This document shows, piece by piece, positions 10,290 through 61,624 of a stretch of DNA of 64,000 nt. A program made the translations under genes and the position numbers. Under the pieces are notes generated by a model. The model was not told the DNA's origin. It made no database searches and worked only from the letters and a program-made list of their open reading frames with translations. Position 1 is the first letter of the stretch. The number at the start of each line of letters is the position of its first letter. The stretch is from Alphaproteobacteria bacterium (lineage in GTDB: Bacteria > Pseudomonadota > Alphaproteobacteria > JAAEOK01). The stretch spans positions 62,001 through 126,000 of the forward strand of contig JAAEOK010000036.1 in NCBI GenBank assembly GCA_024244705.1. The letters are read 5' to 3'.

Positions 10290-11621
10290 TCACCGCGTGA
10301 CTACCATCACGTCGACACGGTCGGGATCGCCACCTTCGACCTTGTTGCCGAGCGCGCGAACATCCATGCGGGTGCTCCTGACGCCAAGCTTGATCAGGTG
10401 ACCGCGAACGGCGAGCGCCCGAGACAGCGACAACCGCCGGGCTTTGCTGGCTTCCTCGTCGCTGCCATCGGCATAGGCAACGAGCCGTACGCGAAGACTC
10501 TCGTCGTCGCCGAGCTGAGCCGCAACGGCTTCGAGCTCTACGCCGTCGCCGAATTCGGCACTGCCGGGATCGAACCGAACCGACAGTGTGTCACCATCGA
10601 CGGTCTGAGCGGCCGGCGTCCGCGCGGCGACCTGGACCTGCTCCGTCGCCGCCGCTGGTGGTGGCACTTCCACCGCTGCCGGCGCTTGCGCCACCGCAGC
10701 CGGCGCCTGTGCCAGGGCGGGCACAGCGGCGGGTTCGGGCGCCGTCGCCGACGGCGGCGCCTTCGGCTGCGAAGGTTGCACGATGGGGCTCGGCGGAACG
10801 GCGATCGTCGCGGCGCTCGCCGCCGGCATCTCATCGGCCGCCGGTTCGGTGTCCGCCGGATCGGCCGATCCTTCGGCTACCGCCGGGGCCGGCATCGTGG
10901 TTGCGATACTGGTGGCCAGCGCCGGCGGCGCGGCGGGCACCGCTTGTGGTGCCGGTTTGGCCTGAGCCACCGGTGCCGCAGGCGGTTGTGCGACCGCGGG
11001 CGCCACCGCAGCGGTTGCCGTGGGTGTCGCTTGACGAACGGCCGGCACCAAAGGCGTCGGGGAAGTGGTTCTCGGCGCGCTGGCGACCGCCGACGATGGC
11101 GGCCGTATTTGCGGTGCCAACAATGTCGGTTGCGGTGGTCCGAACCCGGAGTTCGGCACCAGCAGATAGCCGCCGTAGGTCGGTCCAGTCTGGGCCACCG
11201 CCGGAGGCGGGGAGTAGGCCGGCACCCGACCATAGGTCGGTGCGGCGCCATAAGGCTGCGGTACGGCACCATACCCCTGCGGTACGGCAACATAGCCCTG
11301 GGGCGCGGCGCCATAACCCTGCGGTGGGGCGCCATAACCCTGTGGCGCGGTGCCATAAGGCTGCGGCGCGGCGCCATAACCCTGCGGTACCGTGCCATAC
11401 GGCTGCGGCGCAGCATAAGCCGGTGCGCCGCCATAGTTCGGTGGCGGATAAGGGGCGTAGCCGCCCTGAACATTCAGGACACTGAGGTCGACGATGACAT
11501 TGGGCGTCGATTGGGCGACCGCGGAATTACCCGCAGCCATCGCCACCAAGACGGTCACAGCGACCGAACCCGCCATTGCCGAAAATTGCCGTGCACGACG
11601 TTCAGATAATTTTCCGGTCAT
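10290..11621 (-). CDS. secreted repeat protein with OmpA-like C-terminal domain
   Basis: A 443-residue exported protein. It has an Arg-rich n-region and a hydrophobic core ending AVA-QS (signal peptide, about 1-37), then a Tyr/Gly/Pro/Gln segment with eight PQGYGAA-type heptads, a roughly 150-residue Ala/Pro linker, and an OmpA-like domain in the last ~100 residues (SVRFDPGSAEF, VAYADG, RALAVRGHL). This suggests a periplasmic or outer-membrane protein touching peptidoglycan. The frame opens earlier at a GTG (11651); I prefer the ATG at 11621 because it gives a clean signal peptide. It heads the unit with the MotA/MotB-like pair. Confidence 0.85.
   Translation of the reverse strand: MTGKLSERRARQFSAMAGSVAVTVLVAMAAGNSAVAQSTPNVIVDLSVLNVQGGYAPYPPPNYGGAPAYAAPQPYGTVPQGYGAAPQPYGTAPQGYGAPPQGYGAAPQGYVAVPQGYGAVPQPYGAAPTYGRVPAYSPPPAVAQTGPTYGGYLLVPNSGFGPPQPTLLAPQIRPPSSAVASAPRTTSPTPLVPAVRQATPTATAAVAPAVAQPPAAPVAQAKPAPQAVPAAPPALATSIATTMPAPAVAEGSADPADTEPAADEMPAASAATIAVPPSPIVQPSQPKAPPSATAPEPAAVPALAQAPAAVAQAPAAVEVPPPAAATEQVQVAARTPAAQTVDGDTLSVRFDPGSAEFGDGVELEAVAAQLGDDESLRVRLVAYADGSDEEASKARRLSLSRALAVRGHLIKLGVRSTRMDVRALGNKVEGGDPDRVDVMVVTR
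11242..11409 (-). repeat. eight 21-bp coding tandem repeats (PQGYGAA heptads)
   Basis: Within the secreted OmpA-like gene, eight consecutive 21-base units encode variants of A-P-Q-G/P-Y-G-A/T. On the plus strand the unit appears as GCGCCATAACCCTGCGG-like blocks. Several copies are nearly identical in DNA, so copy number may vary by slippage between strains. It is coding and has no spacers, so it is not a CRISPR array. Confidence 0.85.
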
Positions 11622-51091: not shown

Positions 51092-51973
51092 TCAGGCGTT
51101 GACCCGTTGCTCGATGGTCAGGTTCTTCATCGCCTTCTGTAGTTTCTCGAAGGCGCGGACCTCGATCTGCCGGACGCGCTCCCGCGAGATGCCATAGACC
51201 TTGCTCAAATCCTCGAGGGTCGTCGGGTTGTCCTTGAGACGGCGCTCGGTGAGGATGTGCCGTTCGCGCTCATTGAGGGTGCTCATCGACTTGCTCAGCA
51301 TCTGGCGGCGGTTGTCCAATTCCTCGCTGTCGGCGAGCCGCGTTTCGGCGTCCTGCTCGTCGTCGACAAGCCAATCGATCCACTCACCGTCGCCGTCCTC
51401 GCGCAGCGGCGCGTTGAGCGAGTTATCCTGGGCCGCCAATCGCCGGTTCATCGATACGACTTCGGCCTCCGACACGTTCAGCCGATCGGCGATCTCGGTG
51501 ACGTGTTCGGCGGTCAGGTCGCCCTCTTCATAGGCCTTCAATTGGCCTTTGACCTTGCGCAGGTTGAAAAACAGCTTCTTCTGGGCGGCGGTGGTGCCGA
51601 TCTTGACCAGCGACCAGGAGTGCAGGATGTATTCCTGGATCGACGCCCGGATCCACCACATCGCATAGGTTGCGAGGCGGAACCCGCGGTCCGGCTCGAA
51701 GCGCTTGACCGCCTGCATCAGGCCGACATTGCCTTCGGATATGATCTCGTTGATCGGCAGGCCGTAGCCGCGATAGCCCATCGCGATCTTTGCGACCAGG
51801 CGCAAATGGCTGGTCACCAACTGGTGCGCGGCATCGCTGTCGTCATGTTCGCGCCACCGTTTGGCGAGCATGTATTCCTGCTCTTGCTCCAGCATCGGAA
51901 ACTTCCGAATCTCCTGGAGGTAGCGGGTCAGATTGCTTTCGGCTGTCAGTGTTGGCACTCGAGGAGTCGCCAT
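51092..51973 (-). CDS. rpoH: RNA polymerase sigma-32 factor RpoH
   Basis: A 293-residue heat-shock sigma factor. Region 2 (HLRLVAKIAMGYRGYG, NEIISEGNVGLMQAV, FATYAMWWIRASIQEYIL-like) is followed by the diagnostic RpoH box QKKLFFNLRK at 131-140 and a region 4 helix-turn-helix (LEDLSKVYGISRERVRQIE). AAGGAG is 6 bases before the second of two adjacent ATGs, so I start at 51973. It should direct RNA polymerase to promoters like that of hsp20 in this window. Confidence 0.96.
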   Translation of the reverse strand: MATPRVPTLTAESNLTRYLQEIRKFPMLEQEQEYMLAKRWREHDDSDAAHQLVTSHLRLVAKIAMGYRGYGLPINEIISEGNVGLMQAVKRFEPDRGFRLATYAMWWIRASIQEYILHSWSLVKIGTTAAQKKLFFNLRKVKGQLKAYEEGDLTAEHVTEIADRLNVSEAEVVSMNRRLAAQDNSLNAPLREDGDGEWIDWLVDDEQDAETRLADSEELDNRRQMLSKSMSTLNERERHILTERRLKDNPTTLEDLSKVYGISRERVRQIEVRAFEKLQKAMKNLTIEQRVNA

Positions 51974-52064
51974 CATATTCTCCTTGGATCATCGCGGCCC
52001 GAATGGCACCGCAGGGCCTGATAACACGCTCACGATACGAGCCAGTCTATCAGGACGTTTATGA

Positions 52065-54583: not shown

Positions 54584-54659
54584 GTCCCCTTCGTCTAGCG
54601 GCCTAGGACATCGGCCTCTCACGCCGAAAACACGGGTTCGAGTCCCGTAGGGGACGCCA
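54584..54659 (+). tRNA. tRNA-Glu (anticodon CUC)
   Basis: A 76-base cloverleaf. The acceptor stem GTCCCCT (54584-54590) pairs with AGGGGAC (54649-54655); the anticodon arm TCGGC/GCCGA encloses loop CTCTCAC, anticodon CTC; the T-arm ACGGGTTCGAGTCCCGT is intact; discriminator G and an encoded CCA (54657-54659) end it. The last bases of the gene recur at 60383, so it appears to be an integration target. Confidence 0.96.
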
Positions 54660-54720
54660 AGTTTCGTGAGGATCGTGAAATCGGGCGGTTATCGCTCCTA
54701 TACCTGCATTCGCTGCGCCC

Positions 54721-54862
54721 TCACGGATGCTGATGGAAGAATTTGTTGGTGATCTTCCACTCGCCATCGGCTTTCAGCACCGTGAACAGGTCGGTGAACC
54801 GATGACCGGTCCAGTTGTCGAGTTCGAGCCGCATGGTCGCGACCGAGTCGACAGGGTCGATG
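54721..54862 (-). pseudogene. C-terminal remnant of an NTF2-like protein
   Basis: About 45 residues ending at a TGA (54721-54723), ending TVLKADGEWKITNKFFHQHP. It matches the last strands of NTF2-like/lumazine-binding-type proteins (ELDNWTGHRFTDLF, then LLK-DG-WKI-NK). The rest of the gene is missing: just upstream the sequence switches to adenylate-cyclase coding on the other strand, near 54863. The assignment rests on one short motif. Confidence 0.5.
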
Positions 54863-55300
54863 CTGGCCCATGGTGGGAATATTCTGAACTTTATCGGTGA
54901 CGCGGTGCTGGCGATATTCCCAATTCGAAAGCGGCGGACGACAGCGAAACAGGCACGCAAATGCGCTCGCCGCAAGCCGTGACGCGCAACGGCGGCTGGC
55001 CGCCACCAACGCGAATCGGGAAGGGCTCGGTGCCAAGGCGTTGGCATTTGGCTTGGAGCTACATGTGGGCGACGTGCGCTTTGGCAATATCGGGGTACCG
55101 GAGCGCGTTTCATTCTCCGTCATAGGGCCGACGGCAAATGAAGTGGCGCGGCTCGAGGCACTGACGAAGAAGTTGGGCCGCCCGGTACTGGCAACCGAAA
55201 GCTTTGCTCGCAACGTGGCGGCTAAAGGGGTTCGGCTGGGGCTTCACAAACTCCGCGGCGTGGGCGAACCGATCGAGGTTTGTGCGCCAGCGCCGCCCGA
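54863..55300 (+). pseudogene. class III adenylate cyclase remnant, 5'-truncated and frameshifted
   Basis: Begins mid-domain with HGGNILNFIGDAVLAIFP, the second metal-Asp region of class III cyclases. A frame change near 54930 moves into the frame encoding LAFGLELHVGDVRFGNIG, SVIGPTANEVARLE (with the transition-state Asn/Arg) and LHKLRGVGEPIEV, the normal end of such enzymes. The first half of the domain, with the first metal Asp, is absent. The second frame stays open to 55496 without recognisable homology. Confidence 0.75.
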
Positions 55301-55502
55301 CTTCTTCCGGGCTCAAGATTACTGGCAGCTTGCGTGCCTCGTGAGCGGTGGTAATCCCGGCCTGCGCAGCGTCGCGCCCGGGCTCACGCCGAAAAAGAAG
55401 CGCAAGGCCGAGACCGCCGCGTTCATGGTCGTCGCCGAGGCCCCCCGGATCTCATGCCCAGATGAAAGCGCCGCTCGAGCGTCCGCTTCTCGATAGCCAG
55501 GA

Positions 55503-57017
55503 TCATTTGTAACGCTTGATCTCGCCCGACTTTAATCGAGCCTGATAGTCGCTGAGGTCTCTTCTCACCTCTCCCATCATCAAATACAGACCGAGCACAT
55601 TGGCAATGGACATGGCAAAAATGGCCGCATCTGAGAAGTCGATGACCGGACCTAGGCTCATGCTGGCGCCGATGACGACAAACACACAAAAAATGAGCTT
55701 GAAGATCAACTCCGTAACCAGCCCTTCGCCAAACAGATAGGTCCAGCATTTGAGGCCGTAGTAGCACCAGGAGATCATGGTGGAGAAGGCAAACAACAGC
55801 ACGGCTATCGCCAACACGACTCCAAACCAGGGGAAGACTGACTGGAAGGCGGCCGCGGTTAGGTCAACCCCGCCCAACCCTTCGACATTGGCGTAGGTTC
55901 CGGTGATAACGATGACCAGGGCGGTCATAGTACAGATCACCACCGTATCAATGAACGGTTCGAGCAGGGCAACATACCCTTCGGTGAGCGGCTCGCTGGT
56001 ACGTACTGCGGAGTGAGCGATAGCTGCGGAACCGACGCCTGCCTCGTTGGAGAAGGCGGCCCGCTTCAGGCCCTGAATCAGAACGCCTACGATACCTCCA
56101 CCGACGGCCTCGGGTGCGAAGGCGCCTTGAATGACGGCGCCGAGCGCCGTCGGTATCTCACTGAAGTTGGCGAACAGGATGACCAGGGCTGTCCCCACAT
56201 AGATGACGGCCATGAAGGGCACGACCTTCTCGGTCACCTGGGCGATGGATTTGATGCCGCCGATGATAACGGCGCCAACAAGGACGGCCAGGATGACCCC
56301 AAACAGCCAACCGGTCTCGGTAAAGATCCCAAAGGTATTGGAGATCATTTGATGGGCTTGGTTGCCCTGGAACATATTGCCGCCGCCCAGAGAGCCAAAG
56401 ATGCACAAGACGGCGAACAGCACAGCAAGCACCTTGCCGAGCCTTGGCTTGCCTTGGTTTGCCAAACCCTTGCTCAGGTAATACATGGGGCCGCCGGAAA
56501 CACGGCCGTCGGGATATTCGGTACGATATTTGACGCCCAGAGTACATTCGGTGAACTTGGCGACCATGCCGAATAGCCCGGCCACGATCATCCAGAAGGT
56601 GGCGCCAGGCCCTCCCAGGCTGACCGCGACTGCGACACCGGCGATATTGCCCAATCCCACGGTGCCGGACAATGCTGTGGCCAGCGCCTGGAAGTGAGAC
56701 ACTTCACCGGCGTCTCCAGGCTTCGAATAGACCCCGCGAAGCAGATCGATAGAGTGTTTAACCCCCGTGAATTGGATAAAGCCCATTCTCACCGTCAGAA
56801 CAATAGCGCAGATGATCAACCAGCCGACGATCACTGGGAAGCTCACGCCGGCGATGGGCACTGAGTAGAAGATGAAGGACACGAACGGACCGAACACGGT
56901 GCCGAAGGTCTCACTGACTATCTGATCAACACTTCTCCCGGTTTCCTGAGCGAAAGCCGACATCGGCATCAACAGGGCAAACACCAGCCCTAGGGCCGCA
57001 ATAGATTTTGATCTCAT
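55503..57017 (-). CDS. sodium:alanine symporter, AGCS family
   Basis: A 504-residue Na+/amino-acid symporter with about eleven helices. It has the family motif GGPGATFWMIVAGLFGMVAKFTE, the N-terminal GVKHSIDLLRG, ALSGTVGLGNIAGVAVAVS, and AFSNEAGVGSAAIAHSA. The N-terminus looks like a cleavable or re-entrant signal (ending AFAQE). AAGGA precedes the ATG. GC content is lower than in neighbouring core genes, and the protein resembles marine gammaproteobacterial AGCS carriers, suggesting transfer. UspA lies 54 bases upstream on the same strand. Confidence 0.92.
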   Translation of the reverse strand: MRSKSIAALGLVFALLMPMSAFAQETGRSVDQIVSETFGTVFGPFVSFIFYSVPIAGVSFPVIVGWLIICAIVLTVRMGFIQFTGVKHSIDLLRGVYSKPGDAGEVSHFQALATALSGTVGLGNIAGVAVAVSLGGPGATFWMIVAGLFGMVAKFTECTLGVKYRTEYPDGRVSGGPMYYLSKGLANQGKPRLGKVLAVLFAVLCIFGSLGGGNMFQGNQAHQMISNTFGIFTETGWLFGVILAVLVGAVIIGGIKSIAQVTEKVVPFMAVIYVGTALVILFANFSEIPTALGAVIQGAFAPEAVGGGIVGVLIQGLKRAAFSNEAGVGSAAIAHSAVRTSEPLTEGYVALLEPFIDTVVICTMTALVIVITGTYANVEGLGGVDLTAAAFQSVFPWFGVVLAIAVLLFAFSTMISWCYYGLKCWTYLFGEGLVTELIFKLIFCVFVVIGASMSLGPVIDFSDAAIFAMSIANVLGLYLMMGEVRRDLSDYQARLKSGEIKRYK

Positions 57018-57071
57018 TTCCTTGTAGCCCCCTTTGACTATGCGGCGTATTCCTCGGTGTGTTCGGTGTTG

Positions 57072-57506
57072 TTACGGTACTATGGTAACCGGAATTTCGG
57101 CGGCCTGTATCAGCTTCGCGCCCACGCTTCCAAAGAGTAAGGACGAGATAGTCGTATGACCAACCTTGCCCACAACAATCTGGCCGGCACTATGTTCTTT
57201 ACCAATCTGAAGCAGTACGTCTGCCACATGACCATGGCGTACGATCCCGATTGTCTCGATACCTTTGGATTCGAGTGATTCTAACATCGGGTCCAACACC
57301 CGTTCATGTGCGGTCTGGAGTTCCTCCTCCTTACGTTTGTGCCGCTCTTCGTTTTCTTCGGGGGTGTTGAATGTGTAAGGCGACCATTCGATCACAAAAG
57401 CAACGACCAGAGTTGCATTGCTGAACTTGGCTAGGGAGATTGCGAAATCTACGGTTCGACGACTGCTTTCGCTGCCGTCAATACCGACCATTATCGTATC
57501 AACCAT
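57072..57506 (-). CDS. universal stress protein UspA family
   Basis: A 144-residue single Usp domain. The start VDTIMVGIDGSESSRRTVDFAI and the C-terminal ATP-binding loop VVGKVGHTTISSLLFGSVGAKLIQ (G-2x-G-9x-G-S/T type) indicate the nucleotide-binding class. Usp genes beside transporters often modulate them. It stands between the binding protein and the symporter, all minus strand, and has visibly lower GC than the flanks. Confidence 0.88.
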   Translation of the reverse strand: MVDTIMVGIDGSESSRRTVDFAISLAKFSNATLVVAFVIEWSPYTFNTPEENEERHKRKEEELQTAHERVLDPMLESLESKGIETIGIVRHGHVADVLLQIGKEHSAGQIVVGKVGHTTISSLLFGSVGAKLIQAAEIPVTIVP

Positions 57507-57631
57507 TTGTCGTATCAGTCATTGAGTTCCATCCTTGTGGGATGATGTCGGAGAATATCACTCGTCTCGATTCGCCCAAAATAGAAAACCTGGGAAAAGC
57601 CCGGGCCATTTATTTCGAGACATCACTTGAT

Positions 57632-58849
57632 TCACCTTACCTGACCAAATTCCCTGAAAGAGCCTTCTCTTACGTATACGCCCATTTCGACGATCACGCC
57701 GGACACATCGCCAGCCTTGTCAAACTCGTGACTGCCGGTCGCGCCCTCATAGTTGATCTCCTTTCCCGCCTTGAGCAGGGCTTTAGCTTTCTTCCATTCA
57801 CCCGGCAGGATGACCTCACCCGGTGCCGTTGCCACGGCGCGCAAGGCCTCGGCAAGCCTGGCGCGCTCTGCACTGCCGTTCTTCTCGATCGCCAGCGCCA
57901 ACAGGAAAGCGGCGTCATAGGACTGACCAACAAACGGTGCCGTCGGGTTCAGATCGGCACCCCACGCGAGCTCGTTGAATACTCTCGCGCCTGTCGTATC
58001 GGGTTCGCCCGGCTTGGTCGCAATCATGCCTCTCAATTTATCGCTACCGATTGCGTGGATAAGTGTGTTGCTGACCATCCCGTCGCCACCAACAAACCGG
58101 TCAAAATCACCCCTTTCCAGCGCCTGGCGAATAATAGTCTGGCCGGAGCCGTTCGCGTAGGCCAGCACAACCAGCGTATCGGCATCCGAAGCGGCCAGTG
58201 AGCCGATCTCGGCACGGTAGTCCGCCCTGCCCTCCTCGTGTGCCTCGTTCGCCGCCACCTTGCCACCGGCTGCCTTGAAGGCATCGGAAAGCGCATCGGC
58301 AAAGCCCTTACCGTAGTCGTTGTTGACATAGGTGATAGCAATATTATCGATCCCCTTCGACATCAACAGGCGGGCCATGGCGCCGCCCTGATACACATCG
58401 GAAGGCGTGGTGCGGAACACCAGATCGTTGTCATCGAGCGATGTGATTGCTGGAGCTGTTGACGCCGGTGACACCACTGTGACGCCAGCGGGAATCGTAA
58501 CACTATTAGCCATTGCAATCGTCGCGCTCGAACACATTGCTCCGACAACGGCAACGACCTTTTCGGTGTTCACAAGATCGTTGGCGGCGTTTACCGCAGC
58601 GGTGGTATCCGCGCAGGTCGTATCACCGTTGGGCATGGCGATTTCCTGACCATCGAGTACGCCGCCCTGATCATTGACGTGCTTGGCAGCTAGCTTTGCG
58701 CCCTTGTAAATCCCTGGTGTCAGGCTTTGGAGCGGGCCGGTGAACCCGCCAAGAAAACCGACTCTCACATCGGCCGCGGCGGCTCCCGAGCTCATGAGCG
58801 CAGTGGCTACTGCTGCTATTGTCAATGAGCGCTTAAGATTAATTGACAT
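57632..58849 (-). CDS. ABC-type amino-acid-binding protein, LivK/LivJ-like
   Basis: A 405-residue periplasmic protein. The signal peptide (about 1-26, ending AAA-ADV) is followed by the Peripla_BP_6 fold: VGFLGGFTGPLQSL, VVGAMCSSATIA, VSPASTAPAIT, VFRTTPSDVYQG and YVNNDYGKGFADAL. It resembles branched-chain amino-acid or amide receptors. No permease or ATPase gene is next to it, so it either serves a remote ABC system or acts as an orphan receptor for the AGCS/Usp unit. Confidence 0.9.
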   Translation of the reverse strand: MSINLKRSLTIAAVATALMSSGAAAADVRVGFLGGFTGPLQSLTPGIYKGAKLAAKHVNDQGGVLDGQEIAMPNGDTTCADTTAAVNAANDLVNTEKVVAVVGAMCSSATIAMANSVTIPAGVTVVSPASTAPAITSLDDNDLVFRTTPSDVYQGGAMARLLMSKGIDNIAITYVNNDYGKGFADALSDAFKAAGGKVAANEAHEEGRADYRAEIGSLAASDADTLVVLAYANGSGQTIIRQALERGDFDRFVGGDGMVSNTLIHAIGSDKLRGMIATKPGEPDTTGARVFNELAWGADLNPTAPFVGQSYDAAFLLALAIEKNGSAERARLAEALRAVATAPGEVILPGEWKKAKALLKAGKEINYEGATGSHEFDKAGDVSGVIVEMGVYVREGSFREFGQVR

Positions 58850-59133
58850 AAACTAATGGTCCTCAGCCGACATTTTCCATATGGCTCTCGTTCTCACATC
58901 GATCTTGTTCCTTTTTCGGCTGGGAAGCAATAGCCTGAAGCATTTGCCGACAAGGCACGATGTCGGAGAACGTCCCCATTGTGCGCTCGGTGAACCTTTG
59001 ATCTAGCGCAATGTTCGCCATCGATCGTGGCACTATTTCTTTTGGAACAGTGAGAGGTAGCATCCGGTAGATGTCGGACGGCGATCTCGTTTGGGTGAGG
59101 TCAGTTCAATCAAGGGAATGGGAGGGGGACTGA

Positions 59134-60084
59134 ATGAAGGCGGTGTTTTTCGAGGAGTTCGGCGGCCCTGAAGTTCTCCGGGTCGCGACCCTGCCCGCGC
59201 CGGATCTGGAGGATGGGCATCTTCTGATCGATGTTCATTGTGCGGGTGTAAATCCCATTGATTGGAAGGCGCGCAGCGGGGCCTACACTAAGATTTTCGG
59301 GCATCAATTCCCGATCGTGGCCGGGTTCGATTACTCGGGCACCGTACAGGCCGTCGGCAGGGGCGTTAGCGGGTTTGCCGCGGGCGACCGCGTGAATGGC
59401 ATGAATCTCGGCAGCACAATGCGCCACGGCACCTACGCCGAGGTCACGCTGGTGCCGGCCGAGGCCGCCTGCCATATCCCCGACGACCTGTCATTCGAAG
59501 CTGCGGCGGCTATCCCAACCGGTGCGCTCACCGCCGACCAAAGCTTGATCGACTTTGGCGGCCTCGCCGCGGGCCAATCGGTGCTGATACAGGCCGGCGC
59601 AGGTGGCGTTGGCAGTCTCGCGATTCAACTCGCAAAGCAGCGGGGTGCCACGGTGCTCACGACCGCGCGCGCCGGTGACCTCGACTACGTCCTCAATCTG
59701 GGAGCCGATTACGTGGTCGACTTCGAGTCACAGGACTTTGTCCAAATTGCGCGCGAGCACTTTCCGCAAGGGCTCGATTTGGTCGTCGATATGATCGGCG
59801 GCGAAACACTTGCCCGAGGCTACGAAACGCTTCGCAAAGGCGGGCGCATGGCGCTTCTGGTCAGTCAGCCGGATCCATCGGTGGATGAGAAATTCGGGAT
59901 CCACTCCGAGTTTGTCTTTACGGTTTCTAATGTAAAGCGGTTAAGCGAGCTGACGGCCATGTTGGTGCGGGGAGCGATCAAGCTGCCCGAGATCAAGAGC
60001 ATGGCCATCGAGGATGCCGCCAAGGCCCAAATCGAAAGCGAAGCGGGCAACGTACGCGGGAAGTTGATTCTGAAAGTGCAGTAG
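59134..60084 (+). CDS. NADPH:quinone oxidoreductase-like MDR protein
   Basis: A 316-residue zinc-free medium-chain dehydrogenase/reductase. The N-terminal GroES-like domain (MKAVFFEEFGGPEVL, VNPIDWKARSG, GFDYSGTV) is followed by an NADP-binding Rossmann fold with AGAGGVGSLAIQLAKQRGATV. No zinc-ligand cysteines are seen. It likely reduces quinones or enones. It is the last gene inside the proposed island and is divergent from the binding-protein gene. The 284 bases upstream (58850-59133) hold no gene I can defend. Confidence 0.9.
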   Translation: MKAVFFEEFGGPEVLRVATLPAPDLEDGHLLIDVHCAGVNPIDWKARSGAYTKIFGHQFPIVAGFDYSGTVQAVGRGVSGFAAGDRVNGMNLGSTMRHGTYAEVTLVPAEAACHIPDDLSFEAAAAIPTGALTADQSLIDFGGLAAGQSVLIQAGAGGVGSLAIQLAKQRGATVLTTARAGDLDYVLNLGADYVVDFESQDFVQIAREHFPQGLDLVVDMIGGETLARGYETLRKGGRMALLVSQPDPSVDEKFGIHSEFVFTVSNVKRLSELTAMLVRGAIKLPEIKSMAIEDAAKAQIESEAGNVRGKLILKVQ

Positions 60085-60349
60085 ACAGTGACGCCTAAGA
60101 CTTTGGGATCTATATCGATCGCCCAGTTGGACAATAACTCATGACCCTCGATGTCTCTTGTGGGTCCAGGCTGACTTTCGGCGGCTTACCCACGAACGTC
60201 CGATATTGGCCGGAACTCCGACATCCTCGATCAGACCTGGAGGTCTGCGACGATGCCGCCTGCGTTCAATTTGACATCACCTTTCTGCGGAACCGCCCAG
60301 TCGGTGCATCTCTCATCACCTGAAACCGGCCCGGTCCGGTCAAGCCTCT

Positions 60350-60375
60350 GAGTCAATCGAGTTTTCGATTGGCTC
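60350..60375. repeat. 11-bp-stem hairpin beside the att-like repeat
   Basis: GAGTCAATCGA (60350-60360), loop GTTT, TCGATTGGCTC (60365-60375): eleven continuous pairs, one being G-U. It is 7 bases from the tRNA-derived repeat. It may be a recombinase-binding site or a terminator for the MDR gene; no T-run follows on either strand. Confidence 0.6.
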
Positions 60376-60382
60376 CATCGGT

Positions 60383-60398
60383 TCCCGCAGGGGACGCC
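60383..60398 (+). repeat. att-like copy of the tRNA-Glu 3' end
   Basis: TCCCGCAGGGGACGCC matches tRNA-Glu 54643-54658 at 15 of 16 positions, same strand. No other tRNA arms surround it, so it is a short duplication of the tRNA 3' end rather than a second gene, as left by tyrosine-recombinase integration. Confidence 0.65.
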
Positions 60399-60652
60399 GA
60401 ACTTTCCCTCCAGCGTTTTGTTCCCTGGCTCTCCGAGCCGTCGGTCGGCACCTGCCTGTCGCCACGGCCGCTGGCCGCCGGCGGTCGCGGATGATAGGGT
60501 GGGCATCGGCACCGGTCCGGGTCTCCGACGACGGTGCCGACGGGGTAATCTGCCGTCGCCCCGTGCCGCATTGGCCGCGGCAGCCGTACTCGGGGTCGCA
60601 TTGACCGTGCCACCGCCGCCGGGGCGAACGGCAAATCATGAGGAGACCGCCC

Positions 60653-61624
60653 ATGGCCCCAAATCCCGACTTCGGCACCGTCGGTGTCAATTTCAGCAAC
60701 AGCTTCCAGTCGACCCCGATCGATCCGGTCAGGGCCGCCAAGCAGATCGCTTCCGTCGGCGTCAAAACCGTGAAGATGTTCAATTATACCCAGACCGAAT
60801 TCCTCGACGCTGCCAGGGCCTCTGGGCTGCGCGTGTTGACCGCGGTCCCAAACGACGGCCTCGCCGCACTGGCCAAAGGCGACACGGCGCCGGTGATCAA
60901 GGCCACACAGCCCTATGCCGACATCGTCGCCGCCATCTGCGTCGGCAACGAGCCGTTGGGGGCGTGGCACAAGGGCAAGTACACGCAGGCCTTGGTTCCC
61001 GCGGTCACCAATCTGGCCAAGGCCCTCGAGGCGGCCCGGCTCGACGTCAAGGTCACCGTGCCCTTCAACTACGCCATCATGGGGCAGTCGTACCCGCCGT
61101 CGCAGGGCGTCCTGAAAGGCGATCTCACCGCCATCATTACACAGGTCTGCACGGTGCTGCGTTCGACCGGCTCCGCGTTCCTGATCAACATCTATCCCTA
61201 CCTCGACTGGCTGAACAACAGGGATCAAATCCCCCTCGATTACTGCCTGTTCACGGCAGGGCCGGACCACTGGGTGCATGACGGCGACCTCGTCTACAAG
61301 AACATCTTCGCCGCGTCCTATGACGCCCTCACCATTGCTTTGGGCCGGATCGGCTTCGACGATCTCGAGGTCGTCGTCGGCGAATGCGGCTGGCCGACTG
61401 CCGGCGACGTCAACGCGACCGCCGCCAACGCCGGGACCTTCAATCAGAACCTGATCAACCACTGCGGGGACCCGCAGCCGACGCCGCGCCACTTCGGACC
61501 CATCTCGTGTTTCGTCTTCGAGATGTACGACGAGGACCGGAAACCGACCGGGCCTGGAGCATTCGAGCATTACTGGGGCGTCTACACCGCAGCCGGCGGA
61601 GCGAAATACCCGATCACGTGGTAG
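60653..61624 (+). CDS. GH17-family beta-1,3-glucanase-like protein, plant-like
   Basis: A 323-residue TIM-barrel hydrolase resembling plant endo-1,3-beta-glucanases: VGVNFS start, VKMFNYT, VGNEPLG with the acid/base Glu100, NIYPYLDW, VVVGECGWPT with the nucleophile Glu244, and the late CFVFEMYDEDRKP and YWGVYTAAGG. Both catalytic residues are kept. No signal peptide is seen with this start; AGGAG is 7 bases upstream of the ATG at 60653. It would act on beta-1,3-glucan such as laminarin or fungal wall. It is monocistronic, convergent with the methyltransferase. Confidence 0.85.
   Translation: MAPNPDFGTVGVNFSNSFQSTPIDPVRAAKQIASVGVKTVKMFNYTQTEFLDAARASGLRVLTAVPNDGLAALAKGDTAPVIKATQPYADIVAAICVGNEPLGAWHKGKYTQALVPAVTNLAKALEAARLDVKVTVPFNYAIMGQSYPPSQGVLKGDLTAIITQVCTVLRSTGSAFLINIYPYLDWLNNRDQIPLDYCLFTAGPDHWVHDGDLVYKNIFAASYDALTIALGRIGFDDLEVVVGECGWPTAGDVNATAANAGTFNQNLINHCGDPQPTPRHFGPISCFVFEMYDEDRKPTGPGAFEHYWGVYTAAGGAKYPITW

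Follow-up and report, generated by a model that had tools for sequence, protein, structure and literature searches.

What fills the DNA immediately downstream of tRNA-Glu(CTC) in this uncultured alphaproteobacterium, and how did it come to be there? The initial annotation had read this part of our window (the whole stretch of 64,000 nucleotides that was analyzed) as an island that entered by integration into the tRNA gene. Our preferred reading, to which we assign a probability of roughly two in three, is that 54659-60398 is what is left, after decay, of one or more mobile elements that had integrated at this tRNA gene's 3' end.

First, we considered the repeat at the tRNA end. ARAGORN places an intact tRNA-Glu(CTC) at 54584-54659 on the plus strand, and the same tRNA lies beside an aldolase gene in many Rhodospirillales. 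Inside its 3' end, 54643-54658 (plus strand) spans the 3' strand of the T stem, the 3' strand of the acceptor stem, and the first bases of CCA. These 16 bases were said to recur in the same orientation at 60383-60398 with one mismatch, and they do: TCCCGTAGGGGACGCC and TCCCGCAGGGGACGCC agree at 15 of 16 positions. The right copy, presumably a displaced tRNA 3' fragment, ends one base before the encoded CCA end of the tRNA, and the interval from the tRNA end to this copy is 5.74 kb long. If one gap is allowed, the similarity continues a few bases beyond the tRNA end (TCGAGTCCCGTAGGGGACGCC-AAGTTTC and TCGGTTCCCGCAGGGGACGCCGAACTTTC). Within 124 kb of the contig, this gapped alignment is the best non-self match under one local-alignment scoring; under a looser scoring it falls outside the top ten. 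We also considered whether the right repeat might reach back to the anticodon, as there is a shared GCCTCT upstream, and local alignment gave no support for this. Just to the left of the right copy is a hairpin (60350-60375; DNA fold, z of -2.3) with an 11-bp stem, which includes one G-T pair, and a 4-nt loop. Elsewhere in the window, a predicted tRNA-Ala of 84 nt with its anticodon at position 40 (10648-10731) seems to be either a false prediction or an unusual tRNA.

The further claim that a 15/16 match is improbable by chance holds for a match to the tRNA terminus but not in general. This contig is GC-rich, and 104 kb of it contain about 100 unrelated 15/16 direct repeats that are at most 10 kb apart. 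For the tRNA terminus, which is a site named beforehand rather than any repeat, we estimated from match counts that about 1e-3 such copies would be expected by chance in the 5.7 kb downstream. Across 136 kb of the contig, the numbers of 11/16, 12/16, and 13/16 matches drop steeply, and 15/16 is reached by the right copy alone; in the entire 4.5-Mb genome, it is the sole other site within one mismatch of the 16-mer. With up to two mismatches, the genome has 9 sites, as compared to 8 for a reversed-pattern control. For relatives whose sequence extends 8 kb or more 3' of the same tRNA, the best downstream match to the relative's own 16-mer is 11-13/16, except in Marivibrio (14/16). The frequency of 15/16 repeats in such GC-rich DNA does lend something to another explanation, which we consider credible but unlikely: that a horizontally acquired cassette sits in a variable region, that its genes were gathered by IS-mediated or homologous events, and that the 16-bp match is due to chance or is left over from an older, unrelated integration. 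However, coincidence would then have produced a copy that is unique in 4.5 Mb and is placed and oriented just as an island's fragment should be.

Second, gene order breaks at the tRNA. In many Rhodospirillales, we found the same order of the genes at 47.7-50.1 kb, an RpoH-like sigma factor (51092-51976, which we take to be RpoH because we recognized the locus), RluD, a beta-eliminating-lyase/aldolase, and tRNA-Glu(CTC). The left flank of RluD, aldolase, and tRNA is kept in 16 Rhodospirillales-type loci, whereas the right side differs in all of them. On the 3' side of the tRNA, the relatives have almost no genes in common, and none of the genes adjoining the tRNA matches the window. Synteny ends exactly at tRNA-Glu(CTC); the initial annotation had remarked that the interval's genes lie outside the flanking core order. 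Because the content to the right differs between relatives, the tRNA is the edge of a variable region. (One contig with a Rhodospirillales-type aldolase [62% identity; L068, DVDX01000068.1] is filed as Synechococcus and is probably a misbinned metagenome-assembled genome.)

The right flank, beyond 60398, contains a GH17-like enzyme, a methyltransferase, and GDSL genes, and it is syntenic with none of the relatives searched, although the left flank was found in many. The genomes drawn for comparison are of the same class at the closest and include no relatives from the same genus, family, or order. For want of a syntenic right flank and of any genome closer than the same class, the empty site predicted initially, with the tRNA joined to the sequence to the right of 60398, was not found in the relatives searched. 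The GH17 (beta-1,3-glucanase-like) gene at 60638-61624 has host-like GC. Of 57 genomes of the same class, 3 contain matches to it, all of them weak, and it may have been acquired independently. From 62955 through the end of the window to 68750 (the last part being L066:1-4750), three tandem paralogues with a C-terminal GDSL-lipase domain are spaced about 1.85-1.97 kb apart and are highly similar at the DNA level.

Third, other elements use the same tRNA, which counts against a coincidental repeat. In G051, at the same aldolase-tRNA-Glu locus (G051:C2), a PF00589 integrase begins about 33 bp after the tRNA (L162:1923-3459), and 55 kb further on there is a second copy of 46 bp of the tRNA, anticodon loop through CCA (L197:6848-6893). 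Restriction-modification-like genes may lie just past the right end of this element. In G354 and G265, displaced tRNA fragments lie 18.6 and 13.2 kb, respectively, from the copy with the complete tRNA sequence. In Marivibrio halodurans (L088), a DUF6538 fragment, which we take to be the N-terminal domain of an integrase, directly follows the tRNA; then comes what by eye resembles a broken transposase and then cargo, and 5.4 kb on, 14 bp of the tRNA end are repeated. A control scan of other genomes for DUF6538 gave no matches and was uninformative. From these four genomes, it seems evident that tRNA-Glu(CTC) is an integration target in the class. The interval in our window resembles the 55-kb element of G051 in its chromosomal locus, in its att (the 3' end of the tRNA), and in having a fragment on the far side, but the G051 element has an intact integrase and a perfect 46-bp att from the anticodon loop, and it is ten times larger. 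It also resembles the 5.4-kb remnant in M. halodurans, which is at the same tRNA, is of nearly the same size, and has a short 3'-end repeat. In that remnant, though, the DUF6538 fragment still adjoins the tRNA, and the cargo is unrelated. One aspect of the comparison goes against an island: our repeat is 16 bp with one mismatch, while those of intact elements at this tRNA are about 46 bp.

The content of the interval was largely as initially annotated: remnants, a transporter/UspA/binding-protein block, and an "MDR" gene, by which is meant a medium-chain dehydrogenase/reductase and not multidrug resistance. Starting from the left, there is a 3' fragment of a SnoaL/lumazine-binding-like gene (54721-54865, minus strand, right limit approximate; partial match to PF12893) and a frameshifted fragment of an adenylate/guanylate cyclase gene (54866-55300, plus strand, limits approximate), which is 52% identical at the amino acid level to an intact cyclase-like frame in the same genome (C36:39158-39508). 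A piece of a recombinase gene, discussed below, is followed by a sodium:alanine-type amino acid symporter (AgcS; 55503-57017, minus strand; PF01235 and TIGR00835), a universal stress protein of the UspA family (57072-57506, minus strand; PF00582; 50% GC), a periplasmic binding protein of the branched-chain amino acid type (57632-58849, minus strand; PF13458), and a zinc-type, quinone-oxidoreductase-like dehydrogenase (59134-60084, plus strand; PF08240/PF00107/PF13602). The nearest NCBIfam to the dehydrogenase is the PIG3 type, which scores below its cutoff. The right copy of the repeat is free of recognized domain-bearing genes, and the next such gene begins at 60638.

The transporter block had been described as lower in GC, and a sliding comparison of GC and codon usage had been proposed. 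Both measures fall inside the interval and recover at about 60.4 kb: the cargo is 50-61% GC and has atypical codon usage, while the left side is 61-70% GC and the right side is 63-66% GC. That the step in composition coincides with the right copy of the repeat speaks against a coincidental repeat; the mosaic look of the gene orientations and remnants fits that explanation better.

We also considered whether these genes might be native and vertically inherited, that is, ordinary chromosome of an isolated lineage without sampled close relatives. The distance of the genomes drawn is compatible with this, and symporter-UspA pairs are present in other alphaproteobacteria. However, the low GC, the atypical codon usage, and the broken genes at the left end of the interval are not what native genes would lead us to expect, and neither is the similarity of the cassette to a locus in G183. 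The symporter and the binding protein are 86% and 81% identical at the amino acid level to their counterparts in G183, where they are neighbors; among 385 genomes, the next best match to the binding protein is just 51% identical. At four-fold sites, these two genes are 65-70% identical to those of G183, as compared to 47-60% for core genes of the same two genomes. UspA is far more diverged (55% identity; 36% at four-fold sites). In G183, the order of the genes for the symporter, UspA, and the binding protein differs, and the 40 kb read around them contain no tRNA. The tRNA-Glu(CTC) of G183 is on another contig, and the cassette genes do not come after it. (The region downstream of that tRNA has a weak match at position 71.6 kb of our own sequence, which is too small for synteny.) Because the symporter and binding protein are closer to this non-tRNA locus than core genes are, the pair was probably acquired horizontally. 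Because UspA is so diverged and the gene order differs, the cassette was not transferred intact as a single block.

The comparison with G183 therefore makes horizontal acquisition of the cargo, with a third lineage as a possible source, more likely than vertical descent, which we consider improbable. The interval combines atypical composition with discordant sequence similarity to another lineage, as a horizontally acquired region should. None of the viral contigs searched carries the binding protein, and when the whole island was compared to plasmid and phage records, only the symporter (66-69% identity) and tRNA-Glu were found among the matches listed. A more exotic idea, which we consider highly improbable, is that the amino acid transport cassette is a small unit without an integrase that spreads between distant alphaproteobacterial lineages, with the tRNA-Glu end serving as a mobilizable att pair and a recombinase acting in trans.

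Fourth, no integrase was said to be left. This is correct for a tRNA-type integrase: we recognized none inside the interval, nor an excisionase or relaxase, and none of the genome's own integrases matches the island sequence. (Some of those integrases adjoin tRNA-Leu(TAA) [L063, G000:C17] and tRNA-Phe [L064, G000:C52], so the host does have other tRNA-associated integrases.) However, nucleotide and tblastn matches identify a frameshifted fragment of a tyrosine recombinase at 55293-55434 (minus strand; about 140 bp), of the kind that is paired with IS91 transposases. It corresponds to residues 69-114, approximately, of 292 and is 72% identical at the nucleotide level to the site-specific integrase of Methylosinus plasmid pOB3b2. 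At the protein level, it is detected in two frames (tblastn E of 9e-7); a frame-by-frame Pfam search of the short pieces gave no match. Its relatives in Ensifer, Mesorhizobium, and Magnetospirillum directly precede an IS91 transposase, and the one Bradyrhizobium relative that we examined does not. The island shares this recombinase with IS91-type modules, which consist of a tyrosine recombinase and an IS91 transposase, but it retains just the short frameshifted piece: no IS91 transposase domain was found in those of the island's open reading frames that were scanned with Pfam. Because the fragment is from an IS91-paired family, the interval has a mosaic makeup, and the repeat may go back to an element earlier than the present cargo. 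Both the presence of this fragment and the absence of a recognized tRNA integrase from the interval also fit the alternative in which IS-mediated events gathered the genes beside a coincidental repeat.

Returning to integration at the tRNA, we compared the interval to the islands in Islander, which covers tDNA-integrated islands whose crossovers are at the anticodon as well as those with crossovers at the T/acceptor junction (PMC4383910). As in those islands, a tRNA gene and its own fragment are on the same replicon (here 15/16 and unique in the genome), the 3' fragment lies downstream in the same orientation (both on the plus strand) and extends to the 3' end, and there is cargo between them. 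The length of 5.74 kb is within the range of 2-200 kb, and the fragment is outside conserved coding domains. However, Islander's integrase filter would reject this island, as the interval contains no integrase gene other than the IS91-paired fragment. Also, unlike the Islander islands, ours has a short fragment with a mismatch and is decayed rather than putatively active.

Under our preferred reading, a tyrosine recombinase that is now lost would have joined an attP, which carried a copy of the tRNA 3' end, to the chromosomal tRNA gene, so that tRNA-Glu(CTC) would be the attB target and the attL side. On the left, the tRNA would have been completed by the incoming 3' end, and the original fragment, now displaced, would have stayed at 60383-60398. 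Because the repeat covers the T-stem and acceptor part of the gene, the crossover would have been of the T/acceptor-junction type rather than the anticodon type. Subsequently, the mobility genes would have been deleted, and an IS91-type module may have arrived and then left, with the recombinase fragment remaining. What was retained would be a small amino acid transport cassette (symporter, UspA, and binding protein) and the dehydrogenase. The repeat, the cargo, and the lost integrase may come from one integration event, but the damaged left end suggests several.

Overall, the recurrent target, the break in synteny, the distinct composition of the cargo, and its horizontal kinship agree with the integration proposed initially, although no tRNA-targeting integrase is identifiable. 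The evidence mostly supports a decayed, probably mosaic, tRNA-Glu island of an ordinary kind, from an already known class. More broadly, integration in Rhodospirillales recurs at the tRNA-Glu(CTC) that adjoins the low-specificity threonine aldolase-like gene; the occupants include an intact one (G051) and decayed ones (Marivibrio and this window), and, as seen here, a short tRNA fragment can outlast its integrase.
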